Shown here: one piece after another, positions 5,145-26,231 of the stretch
Layout: every line of letters begins with the position of its first letter
How positions within the stretch are numbered: the stretch's first letter is position 1
Program-made: the position numbers and the translations under genes
Assembly (NCBI RefSeq): GCF_011682045.1
Contig: NZ_VVIW01000002.1
Span: 310,001-374,000, forward strand
From: Massilia aquatica
GTDB taxonomy: Bacteria > Pseudomonadota > Gammaproteobacteria > Burkholderiales > Burkholderiaceae_D
Direction: 5' to 3'
Length of the DNA stretch: 64,000 nucleotides
The notes under the pieces: generated by a model
Databases searched by the model: none
What the model was told of the DNA's origin: nothing
The model's input: the letters and a program-made list of their open reading frames with translations, nothing else

Positions 5145-5849
5145 TTGGCTCGCTGGCCCGCCTGCGCGCTGGCGCTGATCGTGCTCGGGCCGCTGGCGGC
5201 GGCGGCGCCGGCGCCGTTCGCACTGCCGGCGCCCGGCGCCTACCGGCTCGAGCGCATCCTCAAGGCGCCCGAGGGCATCGTCCTCGACAGCGATGGCAGC
5301 CGCCATCGGCTGTCGGAATTTACCACTGGTAAAGTCACGCTGTTTTCCCTGATCTACACCTACTGCACCGACGCCAAGGGCTGCCCGCTGGCGTACGAGA
5401 CCTTGCACAGCCTGAAGAAAACCCTGGGCAAGGAACCGCGCACGCGCGACAAGGTGCGTTTTGTGAGCATGAGTTTCGATCCTACCTACGACACGCCGCC
5501 GGCCATGCGCAGCTACGGCGGAATTGACGCGCGCGAACACGGCGGGGTGGAGTGGCGTTTTCTTACCAGCCGCTCCAGCGCCGAGCTGGCGCCGGTCCTG
5601 GACGGCTTCGGCCAGGATGTCTCGGTGGCCGCCGCGCGCGCGCCGGGGCAGCGGGTGCCGACCTTGTCGCATCTGCTCAAGGTGTATCTGATCGATAGCG
5701 GCGGTACGGTGCGCGAAATCTACTCCACTTCCTTTCTGCAGCCCGGCGTGGTGCTGAACGACATCCGGACGCTTTTGCTGGAAGGCAAAAATAGGCCGGG
5801 CATGCCGGATCGCCTCAATCTGAAGGCCGGCCAGCCTTCCCAGCAGTAA
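5145..5849 (+). CDS. SCO1/SenC family copper chaperone
   Basis: The likely start is a TTG at 5145, two bases after the upstream stop, giving 234 residues with a signal peptide (MARWPACALALIVLGPLAAAA). The frame is open further upstream but that part lacks a signal. The thioredoxin-like core shows TYC-x5-CPLAYE, where classical SCO proteins have Cys-x3-Cys-Pro, and the downstream SHLLKVYLID segment supplies the conserved His. SCO proteins deliver copper to a partner; here the immediate upstream partner is the methanethiol oxidase, so copper loading of that enzyme is the likely role. The 3' end overlaps the convergent kinase gene by 35 bp. Confidence 0.78.
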   Translation: MARWPACALALIVLGPLAAAAPAPFALPAPGAYRLERILKAPEGIVLDSDGSRHRLSEFTTGKVTLFSLIYTYCTDAKGCPLAYETLHSLKKTLGKEPRTRDKVRFVSMSFDPTYDTPPAMRSYGGIDAREHGGVEWRFLTSRSSAELAPVLDGFGQDVSVAAARAPGQRVPTLSHLLKVYLIDSGGTVREIYSTSFLQPGVVLNDIRTLLLEGKNRPGMPDRLNLKAGQPSQQ

Positions 5850-8800: not shown

Positions 8801-10044
8801 GAAAACTCCAGCAAGCTGTTGACCAGGCGCTGAAGTCGCAGGCCGTTGCGGTAGACAACTTCCAGCTGCTCCGGCCCAAGCTGGGGTGGATGCGCCCCCG
8901 GCGCCCGAAGTGCGTCTTCGATGGGGCCGAGTATCAGCGTCAACGGGGTGCGGAACTCGTGACTGACGTTGGAGAAGAACGAGATCTTTGCGCGGTCGAG
9001 ATCTGCCAGTGCCTGTGCCCGGCGCCGCTCTTCATCATAGGCGCGTGCGTTGGCCACGCCCGCGTTGACTGCCGCAACAAGCAGGTCGTAGAAGCTGCGG
9101 TACGCCTCGTCCAGTTGCAGGCGCGAACTGACGCCGGCGATCAACACCGCGACAGGACGACTCGTGCCGGGCGCGATAATCGGTAGCGCCAGCGCCTGGG
9201 TGGGCGGCTCCCTGTAAGGACCCAGGGCGGCCAGGTCGATTCTTGGGGCAAGATCGTCCACCGTTACCGCCAGGCCGGAACGATAAACGTCTTCCAGGGG
9301 CCAGGGGATTGCTTCATTGGCAGCCACATCGACGGCATCGGCCGACATGCCGGGCTGCGCGTTGCGCTCGCCCGCCCGCACCAACCGTCCCGAGGCGTCG
9401 GGCCCGACCGCGTATACCAGGGCAAAGGGCAGGTCAAGGTCGAATTGCGCGAGCGTGTGCGCACACAAGGAAAGCACTTCGTTGACCGACTTTCCTTTGC
9501 TGGCCTGCGCAGTCAGGTCGCGCAGCGTCCGGGTTCGGCGTTCGCTGAGCGTTTGGGCAGTCATTTCGATAACCGGGTGGAACAGGCCGCCCACCCGCCC
9601 GTCCTCGTCACGAATCGGACTAAACGAGAATGTAAAGAAACACTCCTCGACGTAGCCATGCCGTTCCAGGAAAATTTGCTGGTTTTCGAGGAAGGCCGTG
9701 TTGCCCGCCAGGGCCGAGTCGTGCGCTGTGCCAATGACAGGCCAGGCCTCGCTCCAGCATTCCGCGAAATTCTGTCCCATTGAGCGCGGATGCTTGCTTC
9801 CGCAGATGACCCGGTAGGCATCGTTGTAGAGCTGTACAAGTCCCGCTCCCCAGATGACGCAGATCGGCAGATCCGAGGCCAGGCAGATGCTGACCGTCGT
9901 TCGCAGGCTCTGCGGCCACGTCGCAACCGGCCCCAGGGCGGTTTTTGCCCAGTCGATCGACCGGATCAAGCGGCCCATTTCACCACCCCCCATCAGAAAG
10001 GCCAGGGGATTGGCAGTAACGTCGAGCTGATCGGAATGGTTCAT
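5815..10044 (-). CDS. Hybrid sensor kinase with two HisKA/HATPase modules and two receiver domains
   Basis: The 1409-residue cytoplasmic protein has, in order: an N-terminal PAS-like domain (about 30-150), a GAF-like domain (about 190-330), HisKA with SHEFRTP (His362) plus HATPase, a receiver (LTDVMMP, Asp693), two PAS domains (about 770-1020), a second HisKA with AHELRNP (His1048) plus HATPase (SGIGIPP), and a final receiver (FLDIGMP, Asp1333). No membrane segments are seen. The ATG at 10044 was chosen because the upstream extension is low-complexity; AAGG lies 9 bases before it. No response-regulator partner is adjacent. Two full kinase cores in one chain suggest an internal relay or signal integration. 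The 3' end overlaps the SCO gene. Confidence 0.9.
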   Translation of the reverse strand: MNHSDQLDVTANPLAFLMGGGEMGRLIRSIDWAKTALGPVATWPQSLRTTVSICLASDLPICVIWGAGLVQLYNDAYRVICGSKHPRSMGQNFAECWSEAWPVIGTAHDSALAGNTAFLENQQIFLERHGYVEECFFTFSFSPIRDEDGRVGGLFHPVIEMTAQTLSERRTRTLRDLTAQASKGKSVNEVLSLCAHTLAQFDLDLPFALVYAVGPDASGRLVRAGERNAQPGMSADAVDVAANEAIPWPLEDVYRSGLAVTVDDLAPRIDLAALGPYREPPTQALALPIIAPGTSRPVAVLIAGVSSRLQLDEAYRSFYDLLVAAVNAGVANARAYDEERRRAQALADLDRAKISFFSNVSHEFRTPLTLILGPIEDALRAPGAHPPQLGPEQLEVVYRNGLRLQRLVNSLLEFSRIEAGRARAVFEPTALAELTADLASNFRSACEKAGLELRVDCAPLGEPVFVDRAMWETVVLNLLSNAFKFTFEGNITVALRQTEGAAELRVSDTGTGVPADEVPLLFERFHRVESARGRTHEGSGIGLALVHELVKLHGGTVTIDSEWGRGTTFAVSIPLGSQHLPEDQVGDGTAAAQRTTALNAFAEEAFRWLPDAGEASPSATELPALQDRSADDLPARRQGDEERPTVLIADDNTDMRHYLVRMLEPLYRTVAVADGEAALAAALERTPDLILTDVMMPRLDGFGLLQALRADPRTASVPVIMLSARAGEESRIEGLQEGAGDYLVKPFSGRELLARVAAHLQMARMRRDSIEAIRASEAQFRALVSASSDVVYRMNADWTEMRHLQGREFIVDTHAPNRSWLDKYIHPDDQQRVMDAIGEAVDSKGNFELEHQVVRVDGTLGWTFSRAIPLFDKDGTISEWFGMASDVTARRQVQEALAKSEQKYRTLFESMDEGYCVIEMLFDAASRPIDFRYLEINPAFDKHTGLRNVQGKRMQEIAPDDDGHWCHSFGRVAATGEPASFIHHAPMLDGRWLDIYAFRLDGQGTPRVAVLFNDISARKRDEEERERLVARLREEDQRKDEFLATLAHELRNPLAPIRSGLQIMRVAQGDAAATERVRAMMERQVTQMVHLIDDLLDLSRISHGKIDLRIERIELAAAIQQAIEASRPAIAQADHELLIKFPPDPIYVDADLTRMAQVFSNLLNNAAKFTDRGGRIRVAMHEVDGQAVVSVQDSGIGIPPHMLSHVFDMFKQIDGSMGRSKGGLGIGLFIVKRLVEMHGGSIEVLSDGKGNGSEFVVRLPLATSLAAQQPGTLPEPHMRAPHHHILVVDDNADAAETLSMLLAIMGNQTLTAHDGPSGLEMAAQFKPQVIFLDIGMPTLNGYEVARQIRLHAWGADMVLIALTGWGQDEDKRLAREAGFNFHLTKPVLPADLEALLGEITAGKAGRPSD

Positions 10045-10104
10045 CTGGGCCTTGTGATGTGGAACGGGATGCAGGGACGCTGGGGATAAATGATATGGCA
10101 CCAC

Positions 10105-10576: not shown

Positions 10577-10605
10577 TTGTAAGATGTTGTATATATGAAT
10601 ATAAT
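10577..10605 (+). promoter_or_regulatory. Strong predicted sigma70 promoter of the giant surface-protein locus
   Basis: TTGTAA (10577-10582) and a perfect TATAAT (10600-10605) are spaced by exactly 17 bp in an A+T-rich patch. Transcription would start near 10612, giving a leader of about 140 nt before the ATG at 10753. Confidence 0.6.
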
Positions 10606-10720
10606 AACGTCGCGCAAGAAAAGTGTTGTCGATGCATCCATGTTGTAGCTCCGCAGTCCGCCTTTCCACCGCACCGTTCCCGTTCAATTTCCCAATCGCA
10701 TTAAGCGATGCCGCGTGCAT

Positions 10721-10742
10721 TGCGGGCGATTTATTGCCCGCA
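10721..10742 (+). promoter_or_regulatory. Hairpin in the leader just upstream of the giant gene start
   Basis: TGCGGGC (10721-10727) and GCCCGCA (10736-10742) form a perfect 7-bp stem with an 8-nt A+T-rich loop, ending 10 bases before the preferred ATG. No Shine-Dalgarno sequence is visible between hairpin and start, so the structure may govern ribosome access or mRNA stability. Confidence 0.4.
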
Positions 10743-10752
10743 TTCTCAATTG

Positions 10753-13700
10753 ATGAAGCCAATCATGTTTAAACGTGCCTTACCCGTGTTGAAGTCCCGA
10801 TCATCGACAGTGTTTGCCTGCCTGCTCCGGGTGGCGGCGCTCGCCTTGCTCGGCCTGCCTTTGCAGGCCGCCGCGGTCGATATGCTGGTATCGCGCCTGA
10901 CCGACACGCCGGATCCGGCCGTGCGCGGCGGCACGATCCTGTATTCGGCGTCGGTGACCAACAACACCAGCGACATCGCCAACGACGTCAAGATCGTCTT
11001 CACGCTCGATTCGCAGACCAGCTTCGTGTCGGTCACCGACCAGGCGTGCGTGCACGATGGGGGGGCCAACAAGGTCACGTGCAGCTACACCACGGTGGCG
11101 GGCGATGGCGCCGGCGCGGGAACCGCCGACATCAAGAATATCGACCTGACAGTGCGCACCCTGGCGGGAGCCGGCCAGACAGTGAGCCTGCTGACTGCCG
11201 TGACGACGAGCGATCCGGACAGCAACGCCGGCAACAACTCGCTGTCGCAGTTGACCACCATCGATAACGGCGCCGACCTGGCCCTGGTGCTGACCGGCTC
11301 GCCGGGCAGCCTGATGGCCAGCGGCACCCTGGTGTACACCGCCAACCTGACCAACAACGGTCCGAATACGGCGGGCGCGACCAAGGCCACCTTCACCCTG
11401 AGCCCGAACCTGAGCTACCAGAGCGCGGCCGGGTCCGGCTGGTCATGCGGCGCGGCAGGGCAGGTAGTGACATGTACCCGGCCGAGCGCGGTCGTCGGCG
11501 ACTTGCCGGTCATTACCATCAACACCAAGGCCACCGGCACCACCACCGGCACCATCACCACCACCGGCGTGGTGACCATCAGCGGCAGCGCCACCGACTT
11601 TAACAACAGCAACGATGCCTCCTCGGTCAACACCATCATCACCGCCGGCACCGACCTGAGTATCGGCAAGACCGTGTCGAAAGCGCTGGTCGGCAGCGGC
11701 CAGGCGCTCAGCTTCACGCTCACGCCACGCAACCTCGGTCCGATGACGGCCAACAACGTGACCGTCAACGACAGCATGCCCGCCGGCTTCGCGATCGTCA
11801 GCGCCAGCGGCGCCGGCTGGACCTGCACCGTCAACGGCCAGAACGTCAGCTGCACCCGTCCGAGCTACGCGGCCGGCGCGGCGTTCGATATCGTCATCAC
11901 GGCCACCGCGCCGACCGTCATCGCCCAGACCGACGCCACCAACATCACCAACATCACCAGCGCCACGCCGGACGGCGACACCACCAATAACAACGCTTCC
12001 GCGAATGTGAGCGTGGTTCCCGATGGCGTCGATCTGTTCCTGACCAAAGGCAAGTCGCCGAACCCGGTGGCGCAGGGCAGCAACATGATCAGCACCATCC
12101 GTGTGCGCAACCTCGGTCCGCGCGCGGCGCTGGCCGACGAAGTCAAAGTGGTCGAAACCTTGCAAGCGGGCGAGACCTGGGTCAGCGGCGGCGGCACCAA
12201 CTGGAATTGCGCTGCCCCCGTCGGCAACGTCATCACGTGTACCTTGAACGCCCCGCTGGCGCTGAATACGACCTCGCCCGATTTGTTCCTGACCACCAAC
12301 GCCGGCGGTACCGGCAACCTCACCAACCAGGCCTGCGCGGTCTACACCGACACCGGTGGCGTCGCCACCGACCCGGTCGAGCCGAACAACTGCGCCAGCG
12401 CCACGTCGGTCTCGACGGTCACGCCGTCGTCGGTCGACCTGCGACTGGCCAAGAACGCCAGCCCGACCAGCCTGGACTGGAACGCCGACGTCATCACCTA
12501 CACCATGACCGTGACCAACGACGGTCCCGGCGCCGCCACCGGCGTGGTGCTGGCCGATCCGATTCCTGGCTTTATCGCAGGCAAGACGGGCGTCGTCGCA
12601 GCCAAGAGCGGCGGCTCCAGCCCGGCCACCTTCACTTGCACCACGGGCGCCACCGTCACCTGTACCCAGAACGGCGGCAGCATGGCCCTCGGCAGCACCG
12701 CCATCTTCACGGTGACGGTGACCCGTCCGCTGCTCGACAGCAGCAACCAGCCGAACAATCGCTGGACCAACACCGCCACCGTGCGTTCGATCGACCAGGG
12801 CGATCCGCTGCCCGCCAACAATACCGCCAGCGCCGATGTGCAGGTCGATCCGATCGCCGACGTGAGCGTGACCAACACGGTCACCCCAGGCTCGGTTCCG
12901 GCCGGCACCAATGCCACCTACGTCCTGACCATCAACAACAATGGCCCGTCGACGGCGAACGGCGTCGCGGTCACCCAGGTGTTCACGATTCCGGAAGGCT
13001 CGATGACCCACATCGAGTCCGTGGCCAGCAATGGCGGCACCTGCGTCTTCAATGCGCCGAAGACCCTCAATTGCACTTTCGGCGTGCTGGCGTCCGGCGC
13101 GACCCGCACCGTCACCGTCACCATGCGTCCGGACTACATGGACAACCAGCCGAATCCGCGCACCATCGGCAGCATCGCCACGGTGTCCACCACCACCAGC
13201 GAGAGCAACATGGGCAACAACAGCGATACCAATGCGCTGATCGTCACCCCGGCCACGCTCGACCTGCTGGTCAACAACATCGACAACGTCGATCCGATGG
13301 GCTACGTGCCCGGCGGCAATCCCATATTCCCGGACAACGTCGTCACCTACCGCAACACCATCACCAATCGCGGTCCGTCGGTCGCCACCCATGTGATGCT
13401 GACCTATGTGATGAAGCCGCCTGTCGGCAAGACCATGATCTTCCTCGGCGACAAACTGTTGCCGGATGGTCAAGCCTATTCGAATTACTGTAACCAGCTC
13501 GGCAACTCGGTCACGGGGCCGGCCCAAATGAGCGTCACCTGTAACTTCCCGACCTCGCAGATCCTGATGGGCAACAACGCCAGCATCGACCTGTACCTCG
13601 ACTTCCGCGTCGCTACCCAGCCAACCGGCTCGGGCGACACCTACCAGTCGACGGTCACCGTCTCGTCGCGCGAGCCTGAAGCGCTCACGCCGAACAATAC

Positions 13701-16700
13701 GGCCGACCAGAGCACCACCATCAAGATGCGCGTCGACCTGAAGCTGACCAAGGCCGCTTTTGCCTGGAACGGCAACGCCAACGCGCCCGCCACGGCAGTG
13801 CAATTGCGCCAGCCATTCTTCTGGGTCCTGACCCTGGACAACACCGGTCCGGGCAACAGTAACGGCACCGTCATCAACGACGCCCTGCCGGCCGGCCTGA
13901 CGGTCTACACCGGCGGCGCGGCCGCGCCTTACAACGCGGCGCCATACAACGCCGGCCTGACCTGGAGCACCAACAACGCAGCGCCGAGCAATGGCAGCTG
14001 CAGCGGCGGCGCCACGATCAGCTGCTCGGTCGGCCTGCTGGAAGTCGGCAAGTCCGCCACCGTGCGCATTCCGGTCATCGCCACCAGCGCCAATCCGGCC
14101 GTGGAAAACTGCGGCACCGCCAGCACCAGCGACGTCGAGCGCAGCGCGCCCGACAACCGCGGCTGCGCCACCATCGCCGTGCAGCCTTCTTCGATCGCCG
14201 GCTTCGTGTACGAAGACAGCAACAACGACGCCGCCAAGGCAGCGGGCGAGACCGGCATCAGCGGCGTCACCCTGCGCCTGGACGGCACCGATATCTACGG
14301 CAATACCGTGAGCAACGTCACCACCGTCACCAGCGCGGGCGGCGGCTATGCATTCAATAACCTCACGCCAGGCACCTACAAAGTGACCGAAGTCCAGCCG
14401 GCCACGCATCTGGACGGCAAGGATGCCGCCGGCACCGTTGGCGGCAGCGCCAGCGACGCCACGGCCGACGAGATCGGCAACATCGTCCTGCCTGCCAACA
14501 CCAACGCCACCGGCTACCTGTTCGGTGAAGTCAAACCGGCGGTCCTGTCGGGCTACGTGTTTATCGACCTCGACAAGGACGCCGTGCGCGACCTGACCGG
14601 CGTGCCGGCCACCGACGAGAGCGCCGGCGTGACCAGCGTGACCATGACGCTGTCGGGCACCGACGACCTGGGCCCGGTGAACGCCACCGTGCCGACCGGC
14701 GCCAATGGTGCCTACAGCTTCGCCAACCTGCGTCCCGGTACTTACCAGGTGGTGCAGCAGACCTTGTCCGGCGTGACCCACACCGGCATGACCATCGGCA
14801 GCAAGGGCGGCAATGACGGCGCCGCCGTGCTGGCCCCGAATACCCCGGTACTGGGCTTGACCAAGCGCACCATCAGCAACGTCGTGCTCGCTTCCGGCGA
14901 GAATGCGGTCAACAACAACTTCGGCGAAACCGGCCAGGGCCTGGGCGGCGCCGTGTATGCCGACCTGAACAACAATGGCATCAAGGATGCGGGCGAACCC
15001 GGCATTCCGGGCGTGTCGGTCACCCTGTCGGGCAATACCACGACCGGCACCAGCGTGTGCGTGGCGATTTCGCCGAACCCGTGCACCATCCTCACCGACG
15101 CCAACGGCAGCTACAGCTTCACCGGCCTGCCATCGAGCGACGCCACCGGCTACATGCTCACCGAGCAGAGCCAGGCCAGCGCGCCGCTGTCGAACTACGC
15201 CGACGGCATCGACGCGGTCGGCACCGTCAATGGCGTGGTGCGCGGCAGCATGTCGAACGACAAGTTCAGCGCCATCGTGATCGGCACCGGCCAGTTCGGC
15301 AGCAACTACAACTTCGGCGAATCGACGGCCAGCCTGTCGGGCAAGGTCTATCTGGACGCCGACCGCAGCGACACCTTCAATGGCGCCGACTCGCCGTTGC
15401 CGAACGTGACCGTGACCCTGTCGGGCACCACCGCGAGCGGCGCGAATGTCTGCACCATCATCAGCACCTGCGTCGGCAAGACCGACGCCAACGGTCACTA
15501 CAGCTTCACCGGTCTGCCGGCCAGCAATGGCGGCGGCTACAGCGTCGTCGAAACCCAGCCGGTCGATTTCATGGATGCCACCAACACGCTCGGCACCGGC
15601 GCGACCGTGCCCGGCAACCTGGGCGTGATCGGCGACAGCGCCTTCAATGGCGTGGTGCTCACCGCCGGCCAGAAGGGCATCGACTACCTGTTCGGCGAAG
15701 CCACCGGCAAACTGAGCGGTTTTGTGTATGCCGACAAAAACAACAATGGCGTCATGGATGCCGGCGAAAGCGGCATCGGCGGCGTCTCGCTGGTTCTGAG
15801 CGGCACGGCGGCCAGCGGCGGCAGCGCCTGCGGCGCGCCGACCTGCACGACCACCACCAATCCGGACGGTTCGTACAGCTTCAGCTTCCTGCGCAACGCC
15901 AACGGCGCCGGCTACACCGTCACCGAAACCCAGCCTGCCGCTTACCTCGACGGCATCACCCGCAAGGGACATGTCGGCGGCGTCGCCTGCGCGGCCTGCG
16001 TCGACAATGTGGCCAACGTGATCGGCACCATCGCTTACGCGGTGGAAAAGACCCACAGCGACTTCAACTTCGGCGAACTGCTGCCGGCCAGCGTCAGCGG
16101 TGTGGTGTATGCAGACAGCAACCAGAATAGCGCGCTCGACAAGGACGAACAGATTGCCGGCGTGACCGTCACCCTGACCGGTACGGACGATCGCGGCACG
16201 GCCGTGAACCTGACCACAACCACTGCGGCCGATGGCAGCTACCGTTTCGACAAGCTGCGTCCGGGCAGCGGCGCCGGTTACAGCGTGACCGAAACCCATC
16301 CGGCCGGCTTTAACGATTTTCCTGGCAATACCGGCTCGCTGCCAGGCACCATTGGCGCCGTCGCGGCCGGCGTAGCCGTGCCGAACAGCATCAGCGGCCT
16401 GCAACTGGTGCAGGGTGACGCCGCCGTGAACTACAACTTCCGCGAAATCGGCGCCAGCATCCGTGGCGCGGTGTATTTCGACGCCAACAGCAACGGCCTG
16501 CGCGACAGCGGCGAGCCGCCATTCCCTGGCGTCACCGTGCGCCTGGTCGGCCCGACCCCACGCACCGTGGTCACCGGCGCCGACGGCACGTTTGTCTTCA
16601 CCGGCCTGATGGCGGGTAACTACAGCATCGTCGAAACCCAGCCGGGCGGCGTGGACGATGGCGTCGATGCGGCAGGTTCGCTCGGCGGCACCATCAATGC

Positions 16701-19700
16701 ACCGAAAAACAGCATCGGCAACATCACCCTGGCGCCAGGCGCGGCCGGCGTGAACTACCTGTTCGGCGAACGCGCTGCAACGTCGGTGGGCGGTTCGCTG
16801 GCCGGCACCGTGTATGTCGACGCCAACAGGGACGGCAAGCGCGACAGCGGCGAGCAATTGCTCGCCGGCGTGACCCTGACCCTGAAAGGCATCGACGCCA
16901 ACGGCGTGCCATTTACCCGCACTACCCAGACCGACGGCAAAGGCAACTACCTGTTCGCGCTGCTGCCGCCTGGCAGCTACGATCTGGCCGAAACCCAGCC
17001 ATCCAACCTGTCCGACTTCGATGCCGCCACCGGCACCAAGATCGGCACCCTGGGCGGCGGCGCGGCCGGCCTGAACAAGGTCACCTCGATCGTGATTCCG
17101 GCCGCTGGCGGCGACGCGCTCGGCTACGACTTCCGCGAGTTCGATCCGGTGGTGGTGGTCGGTCCGGCCAAACTCGGCGGTCATGTGTACGTCGACATCA
17201 ACAAGAATGGCAAGCGCGAGCCGGGTGAACCCCTGGCCGGCGTGACCGTCACCCTGACCGGTGTCGATGCCAAAGGCGTGGCAATTCCCGCACGCACCAC
17301 CCAGACCGGCGCCGACGGCAGCTATCTGTTCGAGAACCTGGTTCCGGGCACCTACACCGTCGTCGAAACTCAGCCAGCGGGCTATGGCGAGTTCCCGACC
17401 AACACCGGCAGCGCGGTCGGCACCGCCGGCGGCACCCTGGACGCGGGTCCGAACAAGACCACGGCCATCGTGATCGCCAGCGGTACCGATGCCAAGGACT
17501 ACGATTTCCGCGAAGTGGGCGGCAGCCTGGCGGGCGTGGTGTATCGCGACGACAACCATAACGGCGTACAAGACGCCGGCGAGCCAGGCATTGCCGGCGT
17601 GCCGCTCAGCGCGGTGGGCAGCAAGGGCGAAGCAGGACGCGCCACCACCGGCGACGATGGCCGCTTTGTGATCGTTGGCTTGCCAGCGGATACCTACAGC
17701 CTGGTGGAAACCCATCCGGCCGCCTATATCGACGGCAAGGAAACCGCCGGCAAGATCGACGCTACGGTTGTCGGCACGGTCGACAACAGCGGCTTCGACA
17801 CCAGCGCACCGAAGAACAGCATCGGCGCGATCAAGCTGGGCGTGGCGCAAAACGGCGTGGACTACCTGTTCGGCGAACGCCGCGCACGCCTGGAAGGCTA
17901 TGTGTATGTGGATGCCAACAACAACGGCCAGATGGACGCGGGCGAAACCCCGTTGCCGGGCGTACACGTGACCATGACGGGGGGCGAGAGCTGCGCGCAG
18001 GGCTGCGTGGCAGTCACCGGCGCCGACGGCAAGTATGTGTTCGAGAACCTGGTTCCCGGCCGCTACACCCTGGTCGAGTCGCAAACCGACCTGCCGACCT
18101 CGAAGTACATGGATGGCAAGGAAACCGCCGGCGTCGCAGGCGGCGTGGTGGACAACAGCAGCTTCGGCACCGCGCCGTCGCAAAACACGATCGCGCAGAT
18201 CGATGTCACCAGCGAGAAGCTGGCGGCCAACAACGGCGTGATCGGCGGCAACCTGTTTGGCGAGCGCGTGCGTCCGGGTCCGGAAGTCAAGGCCCCGATC
18301 ATCAGTGGTTACGTCTGGATGGACCGCGGCCACACCCGCACCCGTCCGAACGACCATGAAGGCGTGAAGGACTGGACCGTGACGTTGACACAGAACGGTA
18401 AACCAATCTGCACCGTCAAGAGCGATGCGGCCGGTTTCTACCAGTTCGACAACCTGCGTTGCCCTGGCTACCAAGGCACCGGTTTGCCGACCGGTCCCGG
18501 CTTTGAAATCAGCTTCACCAAGGATGGCAATGGCATGCCGAACGTTCCGACCTCGGCCGGTAACGCAGGCAAGCCGGCCGCTGGCGTGATCCGCGACATC
18601 GTCCTGACGGACAACAGCGACATCACCGAGCAGAACCTGCCGCTCAACCCATCGGGCGTGGTGTACGACAGCGTAACGCGTCAACCGGTGCGTGGCGCGG
18701 TCGTGAGCGTGAGCGGTCCGGCTGGCTTCGACCCGGCCCGTCATCTGCTGGGCGGCGTAGCCGCTGTCAACCAGACCACCGGCGTTGATGGCGTGTACCA
18801 GTTCTTCCTGCAAAACGGCGCGCCGGCCGGTACCTACAAGCTGGCGATCAGCACCTATCCGGTGGGCTACGTGCCGGCCGAATCGGCCAGGATTGCGTCG
18901 TGCCAGGGTGCACTGCTTGTTGCGGCCAACGCCAATGTGGGGCTGGTACAGAAGTCCAATAACGCGCCGGCAACGGGCGTCAACCTGCACAAGCCGAACG
19001 CGTGCGTCGGCCTGGTGCCGGGCGGTGCGGACACCACCCAGTATTACTACACGTTCACGGTGGGCCCGAACGGTGCGCCGGTGGTGAATAACCACCTGCC
19101 GATCGACAAGGTCGAAGCGGCTGGCCTGGCGCTGACCAAAACCGGCGACAAGCAGCAGCTCGAGTTCGGCGAAAGCCTGCTGTACACCTTGACCGTGCGC
19201 CAGACCAGCGGCACCGCTGTGGCGCAGGCAACCGTGCGCGACAGCCTGCCGGCCGGCTTCTCGCTGGTGCCGGGCACCGTCAAGGTCGATGGCAAATCGG
19301 TGGCCGATCCGGCCGTGGTGGTGGGCCCGGTACTGGCCTTCAACCTGGGTCCTTTGGCCAGCAACAAGCAAGCGGTACTGACCTACCGCCTGCGTGCCGG
19401 CGTCGGCAGCCTGCAAGGCGACGGCATCAACCGCGCGATTGCGTATGCGTGCAACGTGGCCAGCGGCTGCGTCACGCCGGGCTCGTACCAGCCGGTGCCG
19501 GATGCTTACCCGTCCAACCGCGCCGAGTACAAGGTGCGCCTGACCGGCGGCGTGTTCACAGAACAAGCCTGCGTGGCCGGCAAGGTATTCGTCGACTGCA
19601 ACGGTAACTCGGTGCAGGACAGCGAAGAGCTGGGCATTCCGGGTGTGCGCCTGTACATGGAAGACGGCACCTCGTTCACCACTGATGTGGAAGGCAAGTA

Positions 19701-20085
19701 CAGCTTCTGCGGCTTGACGCCGAAGTCGCACGTGATCAAGGCCGACAGTCTGACCCTGCCACGCGGCAGCCGTTTGACGACGACCAGCAACCGCAACCTG
19801 GGCGACGCCAACAGCATCTGGCTGGACGCGAAGAATGGCGAGCTGCTGCGCGCCGACTTTGCCGAAGGTTCGTGCTCGGCGCCGGTCATCGAGCAGTTGA
19901 AAGCCCGCCGCAGCCAGGGTGGCACGCGTGCTCCGGAAACGGAAGCTGCGCGCCTGCCAGGCCTGAAGTTCGACAGCAAAGCACCTGCCGCGCCGCGGCA
20001 GGCGACCGACAGCGCCAACCAGGAACTGGTCAAGCCACGCCAGGGAGCAATCCCTGCCGGCGCGGGAGAAGCCCGTGCGCAATAA
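10753..20085 (+). CDS. Giant secreted repeat protein with DUF11 and SdrD-B-like domains (putative surface adhesin)
   Basis: The product of about 3110 residues starts with a signal peptide (hydrophobic core ALALLGLPLQ, then AAA). Eight DUF11-type domains follow to about residue 1140 (pattern DL-x-L/V-x-K ... NNGP-x-A ... PAG). Then come about twelve SdrD-B/Cna-B-like repeats (G-x-VY-x-D-x-N-x-NG-x-x-D-x-GE ... GV-x-V-x-L-x-G ... F-x-x-L-x-PG-x-Y ... E-x-QP), a carboxypeptidase-regulatory-like unit, a ninth DUF11-like domain and a last SdrD-B unit near the C-terminus. The Asp/Asn-rich loops are likely calcium sites. There is no LPXTG, PEP-CTERM or barrel of its own. The next gene encodes a barrel and overlaps by 11 nt. 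ATGs at 10708 and 10765 are alternative starts. Adhesion or matrix function is inferred. Confidence 0.85.
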   Translation: MKPIMFKRALPVLKSRSSTVFACLLRVAALALLGLPLQAAAVDMLVSRLTDTPDPAVRGGTILYSASVTNNTSDIANDVKIVFTLDSQTSFVSVTDQACVHDGGANKVTCSYTTVAGDGAGAGTADIKNIDLTVRTLAGAGQTVSLLTAVTTSDPDSNAGNNSLSQLTTIDNGADLALVLTGSPGSLMASGTLVYTANLTNNGPNTAGATKATFTLSPNLSYQSAAGSGWSCGAAGQVVTCTRPSAVVGDLPVITINTKATGTTTGTITTTGVVTISGSATDFNNSNDASSVNTIITAGTDLSIGKTVSKALVGSGQALSFTLTPRNLGPMTANNVTVNDSMPAGFAIVSASGAGWTCTVNGQNVSCTRPSYAAGAAFDIVITATAPTVIAQTDATNITNITSATPDGDTTNNNASANVSVVPDGVDLFLTKGKSPNPVAQGSNMISTIRVRNLGPRAALADEVKVVETLQAGETWVSGGGTNWNCAAPVGNVITCTLNAPLALNTTSPDLFLTTNAGGTGNLTNQACAVYTDTGGVATDPVEPNNCASATSVSTVTPSSVDLRLAKNASPTSLDWNADVITYTMTVTNDGPGAATGVVLADPIPGFIAGKTGVVAAKSGGSSPATFTCTTGATVTCTQNGGSMALGSTAIFTVTVTRPLLDSSNQPNNRWTNTATVRSIDQGDPLPANNTASADVQVDPIADVSVTNTVTPGSVPAGTNATYVLTINNNGPSTANGVAVTQVFTIPEGSMTHIESVASNGGTCVFNAPKTLNCTFGVLASGATRTVTVTMRPDYMDNQPNPRTIGSIATVSTTTSESNMGNNSDTNALIVTPATLDLLVNNIDNVDPMGYVPGGNPIFPDNVVTYRNTITNRGPSVATHVMLTYVMKPPVGKTMIFLGDKLLPDGQAYSNYCNQLGNSVTGPAQMSVTCNFPTSQILMGNNASIDLYLDFRVATQPTGSGDTYQSTVTVSSREPEALTPNNTADQSTTIKMRVDLKLTKAAFAWNGNANAPATAVQLRQPFFWVLTLDNTGPGNSNGTVINDALPAGLTVYTGGAAAPYNAAPYNAGLTWSTNNAAPSNGSCSGGATISCSVGLLEVGKSATVRIPVIATSANPAVENCGTASTSDVERSAPDNRGCATIAVQPSSIAGFVYEDSNNDAAKAAGETGISGVTLRLDGTDIYGNTVSNVTTVTSAGGGYAFNNLTPGTYKVTEVQPATHLDGKDAAGTVGGSASDATADEIGNIVLPANTNATGYLFGEVKPAVLSGYVFIDLDKDAVRDLTGVPATDESAGVTSVTMTLSGTDDLGPVNATVPTGANGAYSFANLRPGTYQVVQQTLSGVTHTGMTIGSKGGNDGAAVLAPNTPVLGLTKRTISNVVLASGENAVNNNFGETGQGLGGAVYADLNNNGIKDAGEPGIPGVSVTLSGNTTTGTSVCVAISPNPCTILTDANGSYSFTGLPSSDATGYMLTEQSQASAPLSNYADGIDAVGTVNGVVRGSMSNDKFSAIVIGTGQFGSNYNFGESTASLSGKVYLDADRSDTFNGADSPLPNVTVTLSGTTASGANVCTIISTCVGKTDANGHYSFTGLPASNGGGYSVVETQPVDFMDATNTLGTGATVPGNLGVIGDSAFNGVVLTAGQKGIDYLFGEATGKLSGFVYADKNNNGVMDAGESGIGGVSLVLSGTAASGGSACGAPTCTTTTNPDGSYSFSFLRNANGAGYTVTETQPAAYLDGITRKGHVGGVACAACVDNVANVIGTIAYAVEKTHSDFNFGELLPASVSGVVYADSNQNSALDKDEQIAGVTVTLTGTDDRGTAVNLTTTTAADGSYRFDKLRPGSGAGYSVTETHPAGFNDFPGNTGSLPGTIGAVAAGVAVPNSISGLQLVQGDAAVNYNFREIGASIRGAVYFDANSNGLRDSGEPPFPGVTVRLVGPTPRTVVTGADGTFVFTGLMAGNYSIVETQPGGVDDGVDAAGSLGGTINAPKNSIGNITLAPGAAGVNYLFGERAATSVGGSLAGTVYVDANRDGKRDSGEQLLAGVTLTLKGIDANGVPFTRTTQTDGKGNYLFALLPPGSYDLAETQPSNLSDFDAATGTKIGTLGGGAAGLNKVTSIVIPAAGGDALGYDFREFDPVVVVGPAKLGGHVYVDINKNGKREPGEPLAGVTVTLTGVDAKGVAIPARTTQTGADGSYLFENLVPGTYTVVETQPAGYGEFPTNTGSAVGTAGGTLDAGPNKTTAIVIASGTDAKDYDFREVGGSLAGVVYRDDNHNGVQDAGEPGIAGVPLSAVGSKGEAGRATTGDDGRFVIVGLPADTYSLVETHPAAYIDGKETAGKIDATVVGTVDNSGFDTSAPKNSIGAIKLGVAQNGVDYLFGERRARLEGYVYVDANNNGQMDAGETPLPGVHVTMTGGESCAQGCVAVTGADGKYVFENLVPGRYTLVESQTDLPTSKYMDGKETAGVAGGVVDNSSFGTAPSQNTIAQIDVTSEKLAANNGVIGGNLFGERVRPGPEVKAPIISGYVWMDRGHTRTRPNDHEGVKDWTVTLTQNGKPICTVKSDAAGFYQFDNLRCPGYQGTGLPTGPGFEISFTKDGNGMPNVPTSAGNAGKPAAGVIRDIVLTDNSDITEQNLPLNPSGVVYDSVTRQPVRGAVVSVSGPAGFDPARHLLGGVAAVNQTTGVDGVYQFFLQNGAPAGTYKLAISTYPVGYVPAESARIASCQGALLVAANANVGLVQKSNNAPATGVNLHKPNACVGLVPGGADTTQYYYTFTVGPNGAPVVNNHLPIDKVEAAGLALTKTGDKQQLEFGESLLYTLTVRQTSGTAVAQATVRDSLPAGFSLVPGTVKVDGKSVADPAVVVGPVLAFNLGPLASNKQAVLTYRLRAGVGSLQGDGINRAIAYACNVASGCVTPGSYQPVPDAYPSNRAEYKVRLTGGVFTEQACVAGKVFVDCNGNSVQDSEELGIPGVRLYMEDGTSFTTDVEGKYSFCGLTPKSHVIKADSLTLPRGSRLTTTSNRNLGDANSIWLDAKNGELLRADFAEGSCSAPVIEQLKARRSQGGTRAPETEAARLPGLKFDSKAPAAPRQATDSANQELVKPRQGAIPAGAGEARAQ
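14190..18250 (+). repeat. Array of about eleven SdrD-B-like coding repeats
   Basis: Within the giant gene, units of roughly 330-400 bp recur. Each opens with a G-x-V-Y-x-D segment and closes with a segment encoding YLFGE or YNF(G/R)E. Sequence similarity between units is visible at the DNA level (for example repeated gtgtatgtcgacgccaac-like stretches), so the array may expand or contract by recombination. Confidence 0.75.
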
Positions 20086-23000
20086 GCAACCATCCCGCCT
20101 GGCACAGATGAACATCATGACGAACAAAAAACTTCTTCAAATTCAACGCCGCGGCACCGGTCGCCTGCTGGCGGGCGCGCTGGCAGTGGCCTGCGCTTTC
20201 CCGAACGCCGGTGCGCAGGTGTTGCCGTCGGCCCCGCTTGATGCCGGCCTGCGCGCCCAGATGGCCGCGCCGCAACTGTGGAGCGGGCGGTTAGACGCCA
20301 GCGCCAAAGTCGCGCGCATCCTGGTCGAAACCGACCGCGACGGCGTGCCGGCCGACGGCCAGTCGCCTGTGCGCGTGAGCGTGCAGGTGCTGGGCGAAGA
20401 CGGCCAGCCGCTGGCGGACGACGTGCTGCTGACCCTGGAAGCATCGGCCGGCCGCATTCTGCTCGACGGCGCCGCCACCGACGCCCTGGGTCCGCAAAAC
20501 GGCGACGCCAACAAGGTCACGCCCGGCATGCAGCTGCGCGTTCGTAACGGCAAGGCGCAGTTCCGCCTGCTGGCCCCGGCCGCCGCGCAGGAAGTCTTGC
20601 TGCGCGTGGACGGCGGCAAGATCAGCACCCAAGGCGTGATCACCTTTGTCCCGGAACTGCGCCAGATGCTGGCCGTGGGCCTGATTGAAGGCGTGATTTC
20701 CAAGCGTAAGCTGAACGCCGGCGACCTGGCACCTGCGCGCTTTAACGATGGTTTTGAGCAAGACATCACGCGCTGGAGCCGCCAGTTCAACAGCGGCAAG
20801 GCCAACGGCAGCGCCCGTTCCGCATTCTTCGTCAAAGGCACCATCCTCGGCAGCAAGCTGTTGACGGCCGCCTACGATTCGGACCAGCAAACCAAGGAAA
20901 AGTTGCAGCGCGACATCAATCCGAACGAGTTCTACCCGGTCTACGGCGACAGCGCCACGACCGCGTTCGACGCCCGCTCGGCCGGCCGCCTGTACGTGCG
21001 CGTGGACGACCAGAAAAGCTATGTGCTGTACGGCGACTTTTCGACCAGCGAAGGCAATATGTCGTCGGTGCTGGGTCCGAACGTGGGCCTGGAAGCGCGC
21101 AAGCTCGGCCAGTACCAGCGCACCGCCACCGGCCTGCGCGGCAACTGGGACGGCAAGCGCGGCAACCTGGGCGGCTTTGCCTTCCACGACAACGCCAAGC
21201 AGGTGATTGAAGAATACCGCGCCAACGGCAGCTCCGGTCCTTTCGCGGTGCGCAACAATGGCGCGCTGACCAATTCCGAGCGCGTCGAACTGATTGTGCG
21301 CGACAAGAACCAGACCGACCTGGTCAAGCAAGTGACGCCGATGCGCCGCCTGGAAGACTACAGCTTCGAGCCGTTTTCGGGCCGCATCCTGTTCAAGCAG
21401 GCCGTGCCATCCTTGACGCCCGAAGGCGACCCGCAATCGATCCGCGTGACCTACGAGGTGGAGCAGGGCGGCGACGACTTCTGGGTCATGGGCATCAACG
21501 GCGAATACCGCCTGAACGACAGCATCAGCGTCGGCATGGCCTCGGTGGACGACAAGAATCCGCAGTCGCCGTACCGCCTGCACAGCGTGAACGCGACCGT
21601 GAAACTGGCGCCAGCGACCAGTTTCGTGGCCGAGTTCGCCCAGAGCGAATCGACCACCTACAGCGCCAACGGCCAGGTGTTTACCACCCCGAGCGGGCAG
21701 GCTGGCGAGTTGTCGAGTTCGGCAACGGGCCAGGCGGCGCGCGTGGCTGTGTCGCACAAGGGCGAAACGGTCGAGGCGCGGGCTTACTGGCAGCGTGCCG
21801 ACGACGAGTTCAACAATACCGCGGCCGGCATCAGCCCCGGCCACAGCGACGCTGGCGTGAATGTCAGCGCCAGGTTCACGTCCACCACCACGGCCTACGC
21901 CAGCGCGCTGCAAAGCAAGGATCAACAGGTTGTTGCCCAGCGCGACGCCGTGCGCGTCGGCATGCTGTGGAAAGCCGATCCGCGCCTGACCCTCGACTTT
22001 TCGCTGCAACACATGAAGGAAGAAGGCGAACTGCGCAACCAGGTCGGCATGGCCAGCAACACCGGCGTGGTGTCGAACGCCAACGGCTTGAATCCTAGCG
22101 GCGGTTTCTTTGGCTTCGGTAACACCAATAGCGCCATCAGCCCGGTCAACGGCGGGGCGATTACCACCTTCGCACCGGTGGGCGCCACCACCGCGCCGGG
22201 TACGCGCGGCACGCTGGACGCCAATACGGTCGCCATCGGCGCCCAGTACAAGGCGACCGACTTGCTGAGCCTGACCGCCGTGGTTGAACATGGCGTGTCG
22301 GACAGCAACCAGAAGCGTTATGAACTCGGTGCCCAGTATCAATTGTCCGAGCGCAGCCGTGCCTATGCACGCTACGAAAACCAGACCGGCCTGGCATCGC
22401 GCTACGCCCTCAACCCGGCCGAGAAGAGCAACGCCTTCGTGGCGGGTGTCGAATCGACCTACCTGCCGGGCGCGAGCATTTTCTCGGAATACCGCCTGCG
22501 CGACGCGCTCGATACCGAACGGGCTGACGGGCGCGACCTGCAACTGGCCAGCGGCGCGCGCAATACCTGGAACGTGTCCGAAGGTCTGGCGCTCAGCACC
22601 AACGCCGAATACCTGCACGTGTTCGACGGCCGCCAGCAAAAAGGCGTGGCCCTGGCCACGGCGCTCGACTACACCGCCAACCCGCTGTGGAAAGCCTCGG
22701 CCAAGCTTGAATGGCGCCGCCTGTTCGACAGCCCCGGCGACATCGGCAACCAGTCGCAGGACCAGTGGTTGAACACCTTGTCCTTCGTGCGCAAGCTCGA
22801 CCGCGACTGGACCGTGCTGGCCCGCAACTACGCCCTGCTGTCGCGCAACAACGACGACATCAGCGGTAAACCCCTGGCCAACAGCCTGCAGGAACGCGCG
22901 CAGCTCGGCTTTGCCTGGCGTCCGGTCGAGCACAACCAGTTCAACGGGTTGGCGCGCTACGAGTACAAGAACGTGCGCGACGGCGCCCGCGCCGATGGCG

Positions 23001-23440
23001 AGAACTACGCCGCCCACATCGTCTCGACGCACCTGGACTACCATCCGAGCCGTCCGTGGTGGAGCACCGGCCGCCTGGCCGCCAAGACCAGCCGCGAGCG
23101 CAATCTGCCGTTCGGGCAGCAGAAGTACAGCGCGTGGATGGCGGCCGGTCGCGTGGTGTACGACATCACCGAAAACTGGGACATCGGCGTGCTCGCCGCC
23201 TACCTGCACAGTCCGCAGAACAAGGGCAGCAGCCAGTATGCGCGCGGGGTCGAAGTTGGCTACCTGGTCAAGCAGAACCTGTGGTTATCAAGCGGGTTTA
23301 ACGTCAGCGGCTTCCGCGAACGCGACCTGAGCGCATCGGACTACACCTCCAAGGGATGGTTCGTGCGCCTGCGCTTCAAGTTTGACGAGAATGTATTCAA
23401 AGGCAAGGACCCAGAAGCGAATCGCACGCTGGCCCGCTAA
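20075..23440 (+). CDS. Outer-membrane beta-barrel protein with N-terminal Ig-like domain, partner of the giant repeat protein
   Basis: The GTG at 20075 has GGGAG at 20064-20068 and overlaps the giant gene by 11 nt, so coupled translation is likely (1121 residues); ATGs at 20108 and 20117 are alternatives. A signal peptide ends near NAGA. Residues about 55-200 form an invasin/Big-1-like Ig domain (ETDRDGVPADGQSPV ... G-x-PLADDVLLTLEASAG). The remainder is a long series of alternating amphipathic strands rich in Tyr, Trp and Phe, ending GWFVRLRFKF, as in outer-membrane barrels. In related large proteins, as I recall them, DUF11/SdrD-B repeats and this barrel are one polypeptide; here they are separate, each with its own signal peptide. 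No TonB box or plug domain was seen. Confidence 0.78.
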   Translation: MRNKQPSRLAQMNIMTNKKLLQIQRRGTGRLLAGALAVACAFPNAGAQVLPSAPLDAGLRAQMAAPQLWSGRLDASAKVARILVETDRDGVPADGQSPVRVSVQVLGEDGQPLADDVLLTLEASAGRILLDGAATDALGPQNGDANKVTPGMQLRVRNGKAQFRLLAPAAAQEVLLRVDGGKISTQGVITFVPELRQMLAVGLIEGVISKRKLNAGDLAPARFNDGFEQDITRWSRQFNSGKANGSARSAFFVKGTILGSKLLTAAYDSDQQTKEKLQRDINPNEFYPVYGDSATTAFDARSAGRLYVRVDDQKSYVLYGDFSTSEGNMSSVLGPNVGLEARKLGQYQRTATGLRGNWDGKRGNLGGFAFHDNAKQVIEEYRANGSSGPFAVRNNGALTNSERVELIVRDKNQTDLVKQVTPMRRLEDYSFEPFSGRILFKQAVPSLTPEGDPQSIRVTYEVEQGGDDFWVMGINGEYRLNDSISVGMASVDDKNPQSPYRLHSVNATVKLAPATSFVAEFAQSESTTYSANGQVFTTPSGQAGELSSSATGQAARVAVSHKGETVEARAYWQRADDEFNNTAAGISPGHSDAGVNVSARFTSTTTAYASALQSKDQQVVAQRDAVRVGMLWKADPRLTLDFSLQHMKEEGELRNQVGMASNTGVVSNANGLNPSGGFFGFGNTNSAISPVNGGAITTFAPVGATTAPGTRGTLDANTVAIGAQYKATDLLSLTAVVEHGVSDSNQKRYELGAQYQLSERSRAYARYENQTGLASRYALNPAEKSNAFVAGVESTYLPGASIFSEYRLRDALDTERADGRDLQLASGARNTWNVSEGLALSTNAEYLHVFDGRQQKGVALATALDYTANPLWKASAKLEWRRLFDSPGDIGNQSQDQWLNTLSFVRKLDRDWTVLARNYALLSRNNDDISGKPLANSLQERAQLGFAWRPVEHNQFNGLARYEYKNVRDGARADGENYAAHIVSTHLDYHPSRPWWSTGRLAAKTSRERNLPFGQQKYSAWMAAGRVVYDITENWDIGVLAAYLHSPQNKGSSQYARGVEVGYLVKQNLWLSSGFNVSGFRERDLSASDYTSKGWFVRLRFKFDENVFKGKDPEANRTLAR

Positions 23441-23449
23441 TTTCCTGAA

Positions 23450-24493
23450 ATGAGAATGACGATGAAACCAACCATTATTTCCCGCCCGCGCACCGTGCTG
23501 TTCGCCGTGATGGCCCTGGCCGTGCAAGGCGCCTGTGCGCAGACGCTCAATGCCCCGGCGCAGCGCATCTCCGACCAGGCGATCGTGGCCGACCAGGCTG
23601 GCTACAGGGCCTTGCAGCAGCGCGTGAAGGCGCTCAACGACAAGGGCGTTCCGGTCAACAATTACTATCTGTCGAAGGCGCAATGCTGGCTCGACGTGTC
23701 GCTGCACGAATATACGCGCAACGACCGTTCGGCTTTCCCGCAGCAGGCACTGGAGCAGGGCGCCGCCATCGTCGGCGCGCTGGAGACGGGCGCCACGCCC
23801 AATCCGGGCGACCAGACCCCGCTGGTGAACGACGCTGCCAAGCTGCGCGACGACTTGTGGGCGCGCTTCGGCGGCGTCAAGGGCGGTGCCGGATTTGCAT
23901 GCGCGGCGCAGAAGGTTGCCTGCGGCGAAGTCGAGCTGGTGCATGCCGGGAACGAATTCAAGCAGCAGGGCTGGCGCCATGCCAACCCGTACATCCAGAT
24001 CGCCGAAGACCATCTGCAGGCGGCGCAGGCTTCGGCTGCGGCCTGCGGCGGTGCGCCGGTGACGGTGGCGGTGGCGCCAGTGCCAGGTGCGGCGCCGGTG
24101 GTGTCGGTCGAGAAATTGACCCTGGCGGCCGATGCGCTGTTCCGTTTCGACAAATCGGGCGTGGCCGATCTGCTGCCTGCGGGCCGCGCGCGCATCGACA
24201 GCATGATGATCAAGCTCGACGGCGTGTATGCGCAGGTTTCCAGCATCAAGCTGACCGGCTACACCGATCGCCTGGGTACGGAAGCGTACAACCAGCCGCT
24301 GTCGGAAAAGCGCGCGGCGACGGTGCGCGCCTACCTGGTGAGCAAAGGTTTTGCGGGCGAGATCGTCAGCGAAGGCAAGGGCGAAGCGGACCAGGTCGAA
24401 GCCTGCACGGGCGTTGCGCCGCGTGCCGCGCTGATCGGCTGCCTGCAACCGAACCGCCGGGTCGAAGTCGAAGTGACCGGCATCAAGCGATAA
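23450..24493 (+). CDS. OmpA-family outer-membrane/peptidoglycan-associated protein
   Basis: The product is up to 347 residues (ATG at 23450; ATGs at 23456 and 23462 are equally possible) and begins with a signal peptide ending GACAQ. Residues about 30-200 are an unassigned Ala/Gln-rich region with several Cys. The C-terminal 120 residues are an OmpA-like peptidoglycan-binding domain: LFRFDKSGV, then IKLTGYTDRLGTEAYNQPLSEKRA, and finally NRRVEVEV. It lies 9 bp after the barrel gene in the same orientation, so the three genes form an operon. A likely role is tying the barrel and giant protein complex to the cell wall. Confidence 0.85.
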   Translation: MRMTMKPTIISRPRTVLFAVMALAVQGACAQTLNAPAQRISDQAIVADQAGYRALQQRVKALNDKGVPVNNYYLSKAQCWLDVSLHEYTRNDRSAFPQQALEQGAAIVGALETGATPNPGDQTPLVNDAAKLRDDLWARFGGVKGGAGFACAAQKVACGEVELVHAGNEFKQQGWRHANPYIQIAEDHLQAAQASAAACGGAPVTVAVAPVPGAAPVVSVEKLTLAADALFRFDKSGVADLLPAGRARIDSMMIKLDGVYAQVSSIKLTGYTDRLGTEAYNQPLSEKRAATVRAYLVSKGFAGEIVSEGKGEADQVEACTGVAPRAALIGCLQPNRRVEVEVTGIKR

Positions 24494-24557: not shown

Positions 24558-24619
24558 AACCGGGGTCAGAGCTTTAATCAGCAACAAAAATGTTGCTAAT
24601 TAAAGCTCTGACCCCGGTT
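24558..24619. repeat. 62-bp near-perfect palindrome (REP-like element)
   Basis: Two perfect 21-nt arms (24558-24578 and 24599-24619) carry the core GGGGTCAGAGC and its complement. After one mismatch, six more pairs (AGCAAC/GTTGCT) lead to a 6-nt A-rich loop. The whole can form a 28-bp stem with one mismatch. GGGGTCAGA-type palindromes are, from memory, common dispersed elements in proteobacteria and are often mobilised by RAYT transposases. It lies between the OmpA-type gene and the next secreted-protein gene and could also stop transcription. Confidence 0.75.
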
Positions 24620-25400: not shown

Positions 25401-26111
25401 TCAGGCGCGCTTGCGGCGAGCGCTGAAGCCCAGGATGCCCAGGCCGCCCAGCAGCATGGCCCAGGTGCCCGGTTCGGGAACGGGCGAGACGTCGATTTCG
25501 GTCAGCGAGTGCAGGCGCCCGGTCATGCTCATCAGCGCGTTGTCGCTGGTACGCAGCCAGGTATGCGAGAACTCGGCGCGGTTGACATCGCCAAGCGAGA
25601 GTCGCAGCGGCAGTTCGCCATTCGGCAGCCACGTGCCAGCACTGTTGTCGAGGATGATATAGGTGGAAAATGGCCATCCGCCTGCGCCCAGCATGAAGCG
25701 GTCCAATGGATCCCAGGAGTACATGTCGTTTTCGATACGGATATGGCTCAGCGCGCGTGACTCGGACGATGTCGGAACGCCTTTGTCGTACACGGTAAAG
25801 GTCAACCTATCCGCCGTAGCTGGCGCGGGTTGGTAGGTATACCCCCCCGGCGCGGTGGCGTCAGGGAGCTGTCCATACGTGCTGTAATTCGGATCGAACG
25901 CCATCTCTGAATCGTAAGAGAAGCGCCCCACGACTTGCTGATCGACCGCGACCACGCTGCCGGGCACGCTACCAGTGCTCACGCCTTCTTCCGTTTGTTG
26001 AAACACGTTTCGTACCGATTCAATCGTCGTCGTAAATTCAAAGACGTGAACCTTGGCCTGGGCCGGCGCGCATAATGCCAGTGCCGTTAGTGCAGTCGCG
26101 ATATATTTCAT
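25401..26111 (-). CDS. PEP-CTERM sorting domain protein
   Basis: The 236-residue product begins at MKYIATALTALALCAPAQA, a clear signal peptide, and ends VPEPGTWAMLLGGLGILGFSARRKRA, a full PEP-CTERM tail. The central part is beta-rich (FEFTTTIESV, RFSYDSEMAF, RLTFTVYD) like many exosortase substrates of unknown function. The upstream in-frame extension (to 26204) is rejected because it precedes the signal peptide and runs over the promoter. It is a single-gene unit with its own promoter and terminator. Confidence 0.87.
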   Translation of the reverse strand: MKYIATALTALALCAPAQAKVHVFEFTTTIESVRNVFQQTEEGVSTGSVPGSVVAVDQQVVGRFSYDSEMAFDPNYSTYGQLPDATAPGGYTYQPAPATADRLTFTVYDKGVPTSSESRALSHIRIENDMYSWDPLDRFMLGAGGWPFSTYIILDNSAGTWLPNGELPLRLSLGDVNRAEFSHTWLRTSDNALMSMTGRLHSLTEIDVSPVPEPGTWAMLLGGLGILGFSARRKRA

Positions 26112-26138
26112 AGTATTCCAATAATCATTTATTGTTGC

Positions 26139-26167
26139 ATTATAGTACATTTCATTTTTGCAATCAA
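26139..26167 (-). promoter_or_regulatory. Predicted sigma70 promoter of the PEP-CTERM gene
   Basis: On the minus strand TTGATT (26167-26162) and a perfect TATAAT (26144-26139) are 17 bp apart, 27 bp before the ATG at 26111. Confidence 0.65.
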
Positions 26168-26231
26168 TACAGGCATCGGCCTTGCTATCTATCCCAAACC
26201 CCATCTTTCGGCTGCTCTCGCGATACGAACT

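Follow-up and report, generated by a model that had tools for sequence, protein, structure and literature searches.

A giant DUF11/SdrD_B repeat protein, a large predicted barrel and an OmpA-domain protein form a conserved three-gene unit in Massilia aquatica and its relatives

Known giant adhesins of Gram-negative bacteria are mostly single chains that carry their own anchor. A 64,000-nucleotide stretch of Massilia aquatica DNA (called the window; on contig 22 of the 7.47 Mb genome) raises the question of how a giant repeat protein might be held by a cell when the repeats, a barrel and a wall-binding domain are encoded by three separate genes. On the plus strand of the window, an ORF for the giant (10708-20085; P0001) is followed by one for the barrel protein (20075-23440; P0002) and one for an OmpA-domain protein (23450-24493; P0003). 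The original prediction took these for a three-gene surface-display system, and its description of the parts was borne out: the giant is a secreted repeat protein of 3,110 residues counted from ATG 10753, its gene overlaps the barrel gene by 11 nt, the barrel protein has an apparent signal peptide of its own and an Ig-like N-terminal domain (residues 78-195), and the gene for the OmpA-type wall anchor starts 9 bp past the barrel gene. By analogy with described fibres and their anchors, the operon is best read as encoding a fibre, its outer-membrane holder or exporter, and a wall clamp. It is a conserved, modular unit built from known kinds of part in a new combination; no description of the three-part system was found in the open-access literature. 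The features discussed below are:

10577..10605, plus strand: promoter-like site TTGTAA-17-TATAAT, 10/12 match, in a block conserved in two relatives
10708..20085, plus strand: giant secreted repeat protein P0001, likely start ATG 10753, 3,110 residues
10897..14172, plus strand: eight DUF11 (CLIPPER-type) repeats of P0001, residues 64-1155, a close Cys pair in each
14194..18156, plus strand: main array of SdrD_B repeats of P0001 (Pfam), residues 1163-2483
19126..19434, plus strand: ninth DUF11 repeat of P0001, residues 2807-2909, without Cys pair, immediately N-terminal of the following domain
19450..19827, plus strand: conserved C-terminal SdrD-like domain (CTD) of P0001, residues 2915-3040, putative dock
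20064..20085, plus strand: junction of the two genes, with ribosome-binding-like stretch, barrel-gene start (GTG) and giant-gene stop overlapping by 11 nt
20075..23440, plus strand: barrel protein P0002, 1,121 residues, own apparent signal peptide
20306..20659, plus strand: Ig-like domain of P0002, residues 78-195, preceding the barrel
20660..23398, plus strand: beta-barrel of P0002, residues 196-1108, about 40 predicted strands
23450..24493, plus strand: OmpA-type wall-anchor protein P0003, 347 residues
23525..24094, plus strand: N-terminal domain of P0003, residues 26-215, putative adaptor, near-full-length matches only with the split barrel (145 genomes)
24158..24409, plus strand: OmpA peptidoglycan-binding domain of P0003, residues 237-320, Pfam 48.5 bits at a cut-off of 27.2

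The reality of the split was judged from the junctions between giant and following gene. At all 20 junctions read in the family search, the start codon of the next ORF overlaps the stop of the giant (an 11-nt overlap with ATG or GTG in 13, ATGA in 7), which rules out a frameshift or assembly artefact as the cause of the split. The next ORF is the barrel gene in 19 of them and, at locus L060, an OmpA-domain ORF that precedes the barrel ORF. Window-type junctions have a purine-rich stretch before the start codon; together with the overlapping start and stop, this argues for translational coupling. The genome has a second, diverged giant-barrel pair on contig 77 (L042), whose genes also overlap by 11 nt; it has no adjoining OmpA gene and may share P0003. 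Neither of the two outcomes that the original prediction had named as speaking against it was encountered: the split is present in many genomes rather than being a frameshift unique to this assembly, and in relatives the barrel gene adjoins the giant gene. From these comparisons, the split is best read as an old, widespread and stable state of the family and not as a peculiarity of the Massilia aquatica genome.

Several features of the surroundings were recorded alongside the operon. Promoter-like sites scoring 10/12 were found three times, against 2.9 expected by chance. Divergent from the operon lies a gene for a large hybrid histidine kinase (5815-10104, minus strand) with two kinase and two receiver stretches, a possible regulator of the operon. 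The OmpA gene is closely followed (24559-24618) by a perfect 20-bp inverted repeat (ACCGGGGTCAGAGCTTTAAT), a member of a dispersed palindromic repeat family with many copies in nearby facing pairs; the motif has 42 copies in the genome with up to 2 mismatches, 21 per strand, and 0 control matches. Further downstream, on the minus strand (25401-26204 and 29281-32544), we noted a PEP-CTERM protein, a sub-threshold GH18 match and a GH64 beta-1,3-glucanase.

The distribution of the barrel was followed with a profile built from 21 sequences (A1), which matched in 29 of 145 family-level (G107 marginal), 43 of 300 order-level and 65 of 398 phylum-level genomes. Loci were taken from 29 of 29, 41 of 43 and 25 of 65 of these genomes, respectively, giving 93 loci; the match in G107 (L132), a 424-residue ORF with 15.8 bits, was treated as noise and stands outside this number. 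The giant module is fused in front of the barrel in 39 loci; a separate giant gene immediately precedes the barrel gene in 45 and immediately follows it in 3, and 6 loci were left unassigned by the rule. On inspection, three of these six have an adjacent giant (L095, L100, L108), L060 has a giant separated from the barrel by the OmpA-domain ORF, the gene next to the barrel at L130 gives weak matches only, and L079 is truncated by the end of its contig. The predicted conservation of the gene order also held, since giant and barrel genes are adjacent in relatives and 18 of the 26 window-type split loci have an OmpA-partner gene as the next one downstream. The remaining eight comprise two second copies (L041, L042), three loci at or near contig ends (L066, L072, L073) and three in reversed order (L080-L082), in which the barrel gene comes first, then the giant, with no OmpA gene beside them.

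The C-terminal SdrD-like domain of the giant follows the barrel just as closely. A profile trained iteratively on these same sequences (A4) scored 99 bits or more at 34 places, spread over 29 of the 145 family genomes. Of these places, 33 are in barrel loci, either in the same chain as the barrel or beside it; the 34th (L131, in G134) runs into a contig end, and the next matches reach at most 65 bits. The profile also picks up ordinary SdrD repeats at lower scores, and the weaker matches listed are ordinary SdrD proteins away from barrel loci, except for another repeat of the contig-77 giant. Within the 26 window-type giants, the domain scores 124-152 bits, and no other repeat of its chain exceeds 87; in divergent giants it stands out less (99 versus 96 bits in L062, 82 versus 81 in L064). 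Its position in fused chains is between the repeats and the barrel. Judged by these scores and positions, this last SdrD-like domain is the probable dock of the giant.

The original prediction spoke of fused relatives, and these were indeed found, some of them with all three parts in one chain. In Collimonas arenae, a single 2,525-residue ORF (P0124) comprises DUF11 repeats, the SdrD-like CTD, the barrel and a C-terminal OmpA domain (83.3 bits). Among P0124 and 120 listed relatives, 34 of 121 proteins have such a C-terminal OmpA domain and 87 lack it by profile; the listed relatives were selected with a region that covers both CTD and barrel, and the joint presence of these two is therefore by design. 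The fused proteins are annotated 'OmpA family protein' or 'DUF11 domain-containing protein', and no functional description of them was found in the open-access literature. The OmpA domain can also stand in front of the barrel, as in 6 of the 39 fused loci and in 17 of 27 loci of a divergent barrel family that is likewise split from its giant. No OmpA domain was found in the chain or next door in 26 of the 39 fused loci which, with L042 and L080-L082, indicates that the wall anchor is not always encoded at the locus. The strongest evidence for a joint action of barrel and wall anchor is this varied placement of the OmpA domain, which may follow the barrel, precede it or be encoded by the neighbouring gene. 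If the domain is wall-binding, its occurrence at either barrel end would place both ends in the periplasm. Since relatives have the same parts joined in one or two chains, giant, barrel and wall clamp very probably cooperate in holding a long fibre on the cell. The divergent giant of L095 (3247-9375, plus strand) may carry an OmpA domain at its own C-terminal end (24.6 bits, residues 1937-2039), which would be a further placement of the anchor.

In a tree of the barrel, a single change is enough to separate the split from the fused state, where shuffles need 20.5 on average; the dividing branch has a support of 89 (below the 95 mark). The tree was built from the 65 of 93 loci whose barrels reach at least 230 bits and 700 residues, and long branches and an odd letter composition drew warnings from the program. 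Under a midpoint root, and with the divergent split family left out, the split looks derived from a fused ancestor. Four loci of distant relatives (L119, L120, L122, L125) have small DUF11 ORFs of about 160-440 residues besides the fused barrel gene, which suggests separate fibre subunits.

P0003 as a whole appears to go with the window-type split arrangement. Near-full-length matches (292-763 bits) were found in 12 of 145 family genomes, exactly the 12 with a window-type split barrel; the next-best match scores 117 bits over residues 175-346, and the lower matches listed begin at residue 159 or later. The N-terminal domain, which has no Pfam match, thus travels with the window-type barrel. 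Pfam gives no sign that P0003 is an OmpA-type barrel in its own right, its OmpA match being the C-terminal domain. A lipobox-type Cys in the signal region is the mark of a lipoprotein. Several orthologues have a lipobox-like Cys; the signal-region Cys of P0003 is replaced by Phe in the two nearest relatives, and P0003 is therefore probably not a lipoprotein here.

The barrel of P0002 is itself predicted, by structure models with about 40 strands (in the barrel-alone model, 111 of 926 residues have a pLDDT under 50). A Pfam scan of P0002 at E up to 1 returned just Porin_4, IAT_beta, Big_1 and Glyco_hydro2_C5, all below cut-off, and a sequence search of the PDB with the barrel gave no match at E up to 10. 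Foldseek matches are weak (TM by query at most 0.27 among the rows listed), and were not used to assign a function. The barrel belongs to a large family, with 1,539 matches among 7,995 candidates scored, and the names of the 120 listed are generic. The barrel could be a general porin or one for nutrients, linked to the giant by nothing more than a common operon, as labels of homologues in some sources (TonB-dependent receptor) and the presence of siderophore receptors and porins among the fold matches might imply; the near-complete co-occurrence and fusion with the giant module, and the lack of a receptor plug domain in Pfam's report on P0002, make this very improbable. Somewhat less remote, and still improbable, is a barrel that acts as an exporter only, in the style of two-partner secretion, with the giant released into the medium. 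A separate secreted partner, a dedicated barrel gene with overlapping start and stop and the retention of the giant-barrel pair in reversed order at L080-L082 would all suit such an exporter. Covalent fusions and a wall-binding partner suggest instead that the giant is held, and Pfam reported neither a POTRA domain nor a haemolysin-activator family in P0002.

In sequence, the giant resembles a stalk. Pfam found SdrD_B in 13 stretches and DUF11 in 9, and the tandem DUF11 repeats reach 306.5 bits over 9 stretches (cut-off 24.6), as expected of a CLIPPER (DUF11) stalk; they begin at about residue 64, shortly past the apparent signal peptide. Cys pairs are present in eight of the nine DUF11 repeats, spaced 8-17 residues apart, out of 42 Cys in P0001, and candidate Lys, Asp and Asn residues for an isopeptide bond are visible in some repeats (e.g. 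residues 316-433). According to the available text of PMC12617251, DUF11 is an isopeptide-forming stalk domain of fibrillar adhesins; PMC12282271 mentions it once, in passing. A PDB sequence search with P0001 matched SdrD (10ps) and UafA, while a single DUF11 repeat gave no match at E up to 0.1. No separate adhesive domain was recognised in P0001 by Pfam, and its C-terminus as read has no LPxTG sortase anchor. Opposite the giant runs an antisense ORF (11443-20127, minus strand, 2,894 residues), which was rejected as a gene: although the stop-free run is also long in L111 (2,400 codons) and the two nearest relatives, it spans just 278-573 codons in 4 of 10 giants checked, for which reason it is probably a by-product of codon use.

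Of the alternatives, the one to which we give most weight, still an unlikely one, is a giant that serves as a structural protein, soluble or periplasmic, with barrel and OmpA protein forming a scaffold of periplasm and outer membrane and nothing displayed outside. With its apparent N-terminal signal peptide, the giant might get no further than the periplasm, where the stretch before the barrel in fused chains, and an OmpA domain at either end, would also lie if that domain binds the wall. A chain of 3,110 residues and about 22 folded domains would, however, be far longer than the periplasm is wide, and DUF11 arrays are described as extracellular stalks and filaments in the available text of PMC12617251 and PMC13319060.

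We favour, with a probability of roughly 60%, one wall-anchored surface-fibre apparatus in which the CTD docks on the barrel, the barrel holds or exports the giant and P0003 clamps the wall. The giant would be a chain of about 22 recognised Ig- and prealbumin-like domains, stabilised by disulfides and probably by isopeptide bonds, and would form a fibre of the order of 100 nm if extended. Its CTD would stay at the cell and bind the barrel protein non-covalently, most likely at the periplasmic Ig domain and the mouth of the pore. The barrel of about 40 strands would hold the fibre in the outer membrane and be its likely exit route, while P0003 would link wall and barrel, gripping peptidoglycan with its OmpA domain and the barrel with its private N-terminal domain. 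In relatives, these connections are covalent, with repeats, CTD and barrel in one chain and the OmpA domain C-terminal, ahead of the barrel or in a separate gene. Surface location, docking, export through the barrel and adhesion are what we infer from this arrangement. Locked domains that fold in the periplasm would need a wide pore, and export through the barrel is therefore taken seriously. A more far-reaching and tentative possibility, which we hold to be doubtful, is a distinct class of export and anchoring, in which a single-chain barrel of about 40 strands passes folded, locked Ig-like domains, is corked by the CTD and bolted to the wall by the OmpA-domain clamp, and the partnership survives fusion and splitting; several giant chains would then perhaps be exported as one cable.

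Since the same parts occur in one, two or three chains, the joints between CTD and barrel and between barrel and wall clamp are directly testable. The Cys pairs and the isopeptide capacity of DUF11 raise the question of how a locked, folded fibre crosses the outer membrane, to which a wide barrel is a possible answer.

The three genes were compared with several known systems. Classical (type Va) autotransporters have passenger and barrel in one chain, an arrangement seen in the fused relatives only, the window having two genes; nor does P0002 match the Pfam autotransporter beta-domain. The separate secreted partner and barrel, encoded together, resemble two-partner secretion (type Vb); transporters of that class have POTRA domains and an FhaC-like barrel, and P0002 shows an Ig-like domain ahead of its barrel. 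For inverse autotransporters (type Ve), P0002 stays below the IAT_beta cut-off of 22.3, with 15.1 bits confined to residues 714-771, and its Ig domain is N-terminal of the barrel, unlike their layout of an N-terminal IAT barrel followed by an Ig passenger. In the fold comparison of the barrel, the SprA translocon of type 9 secretion has a Z level tied with that of ushers and porins, at 11% sequence identity. MSCRAMM SdrD is distant, P0001 scoring 278 bits against an NCBIfam cut-off of 2500. AtaA/TpgA of Acinetobacter (PMC13082670) is similar in combining a giant surface fibre, an outer-membrane anchor and a separate periplasmic partner; according to the available text, TpgA about doubles the simulated peak force for extracting the membrane anchor of the 260-nm AtaA fibre. 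In AtaA, however, fibre and membrane domain are one trimerised chain, whereas the window has two chains, one of them a very large barrel chain. Its repeats are DUF11/SdrD_B, Pfam scans of P0001 and P0002 gave no match to the YadA-type membrane anchor, and P0003 scores 79.3 bits against the TpgA equivalog cut-off of 350, over residues 217-341 in its C-terminal domain. GhpA of Aureispira and GhlA of Litorilinea are giant repeat chains in cell-surface filaments, with DUF11 in GhlA; the available text of PMC13319060 assigns a 49-DUF11 protein by mass spectrometry to the grappling-hook-like filaments of Litorilinea and likens these to heptameric GhpA. Both belong to other phyla, GhlA is reported to be without a signal peptide and no barrel partner is described in that text. 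The CLIPPER adhesin B9T28_05395 of Acinetobacter silvestris is similar in having a DUF11 stalk with an OmpA-like anchor in a Gram-negative; as far as the available text of PMC12617251 goes, its OmpA domain is on the adhesin chain itself and no barrel is described, whereas the window has separate genes. The fused DUF11-barrel(-OmpA) proteins of Collimonas, Variovorax and others have a CTD and barrel homologous to those of the window, in one chain of about 1,600-3,100 residues where the window has three, and the Collimonas arenae protein has fewer recognised repeats than the window giant.
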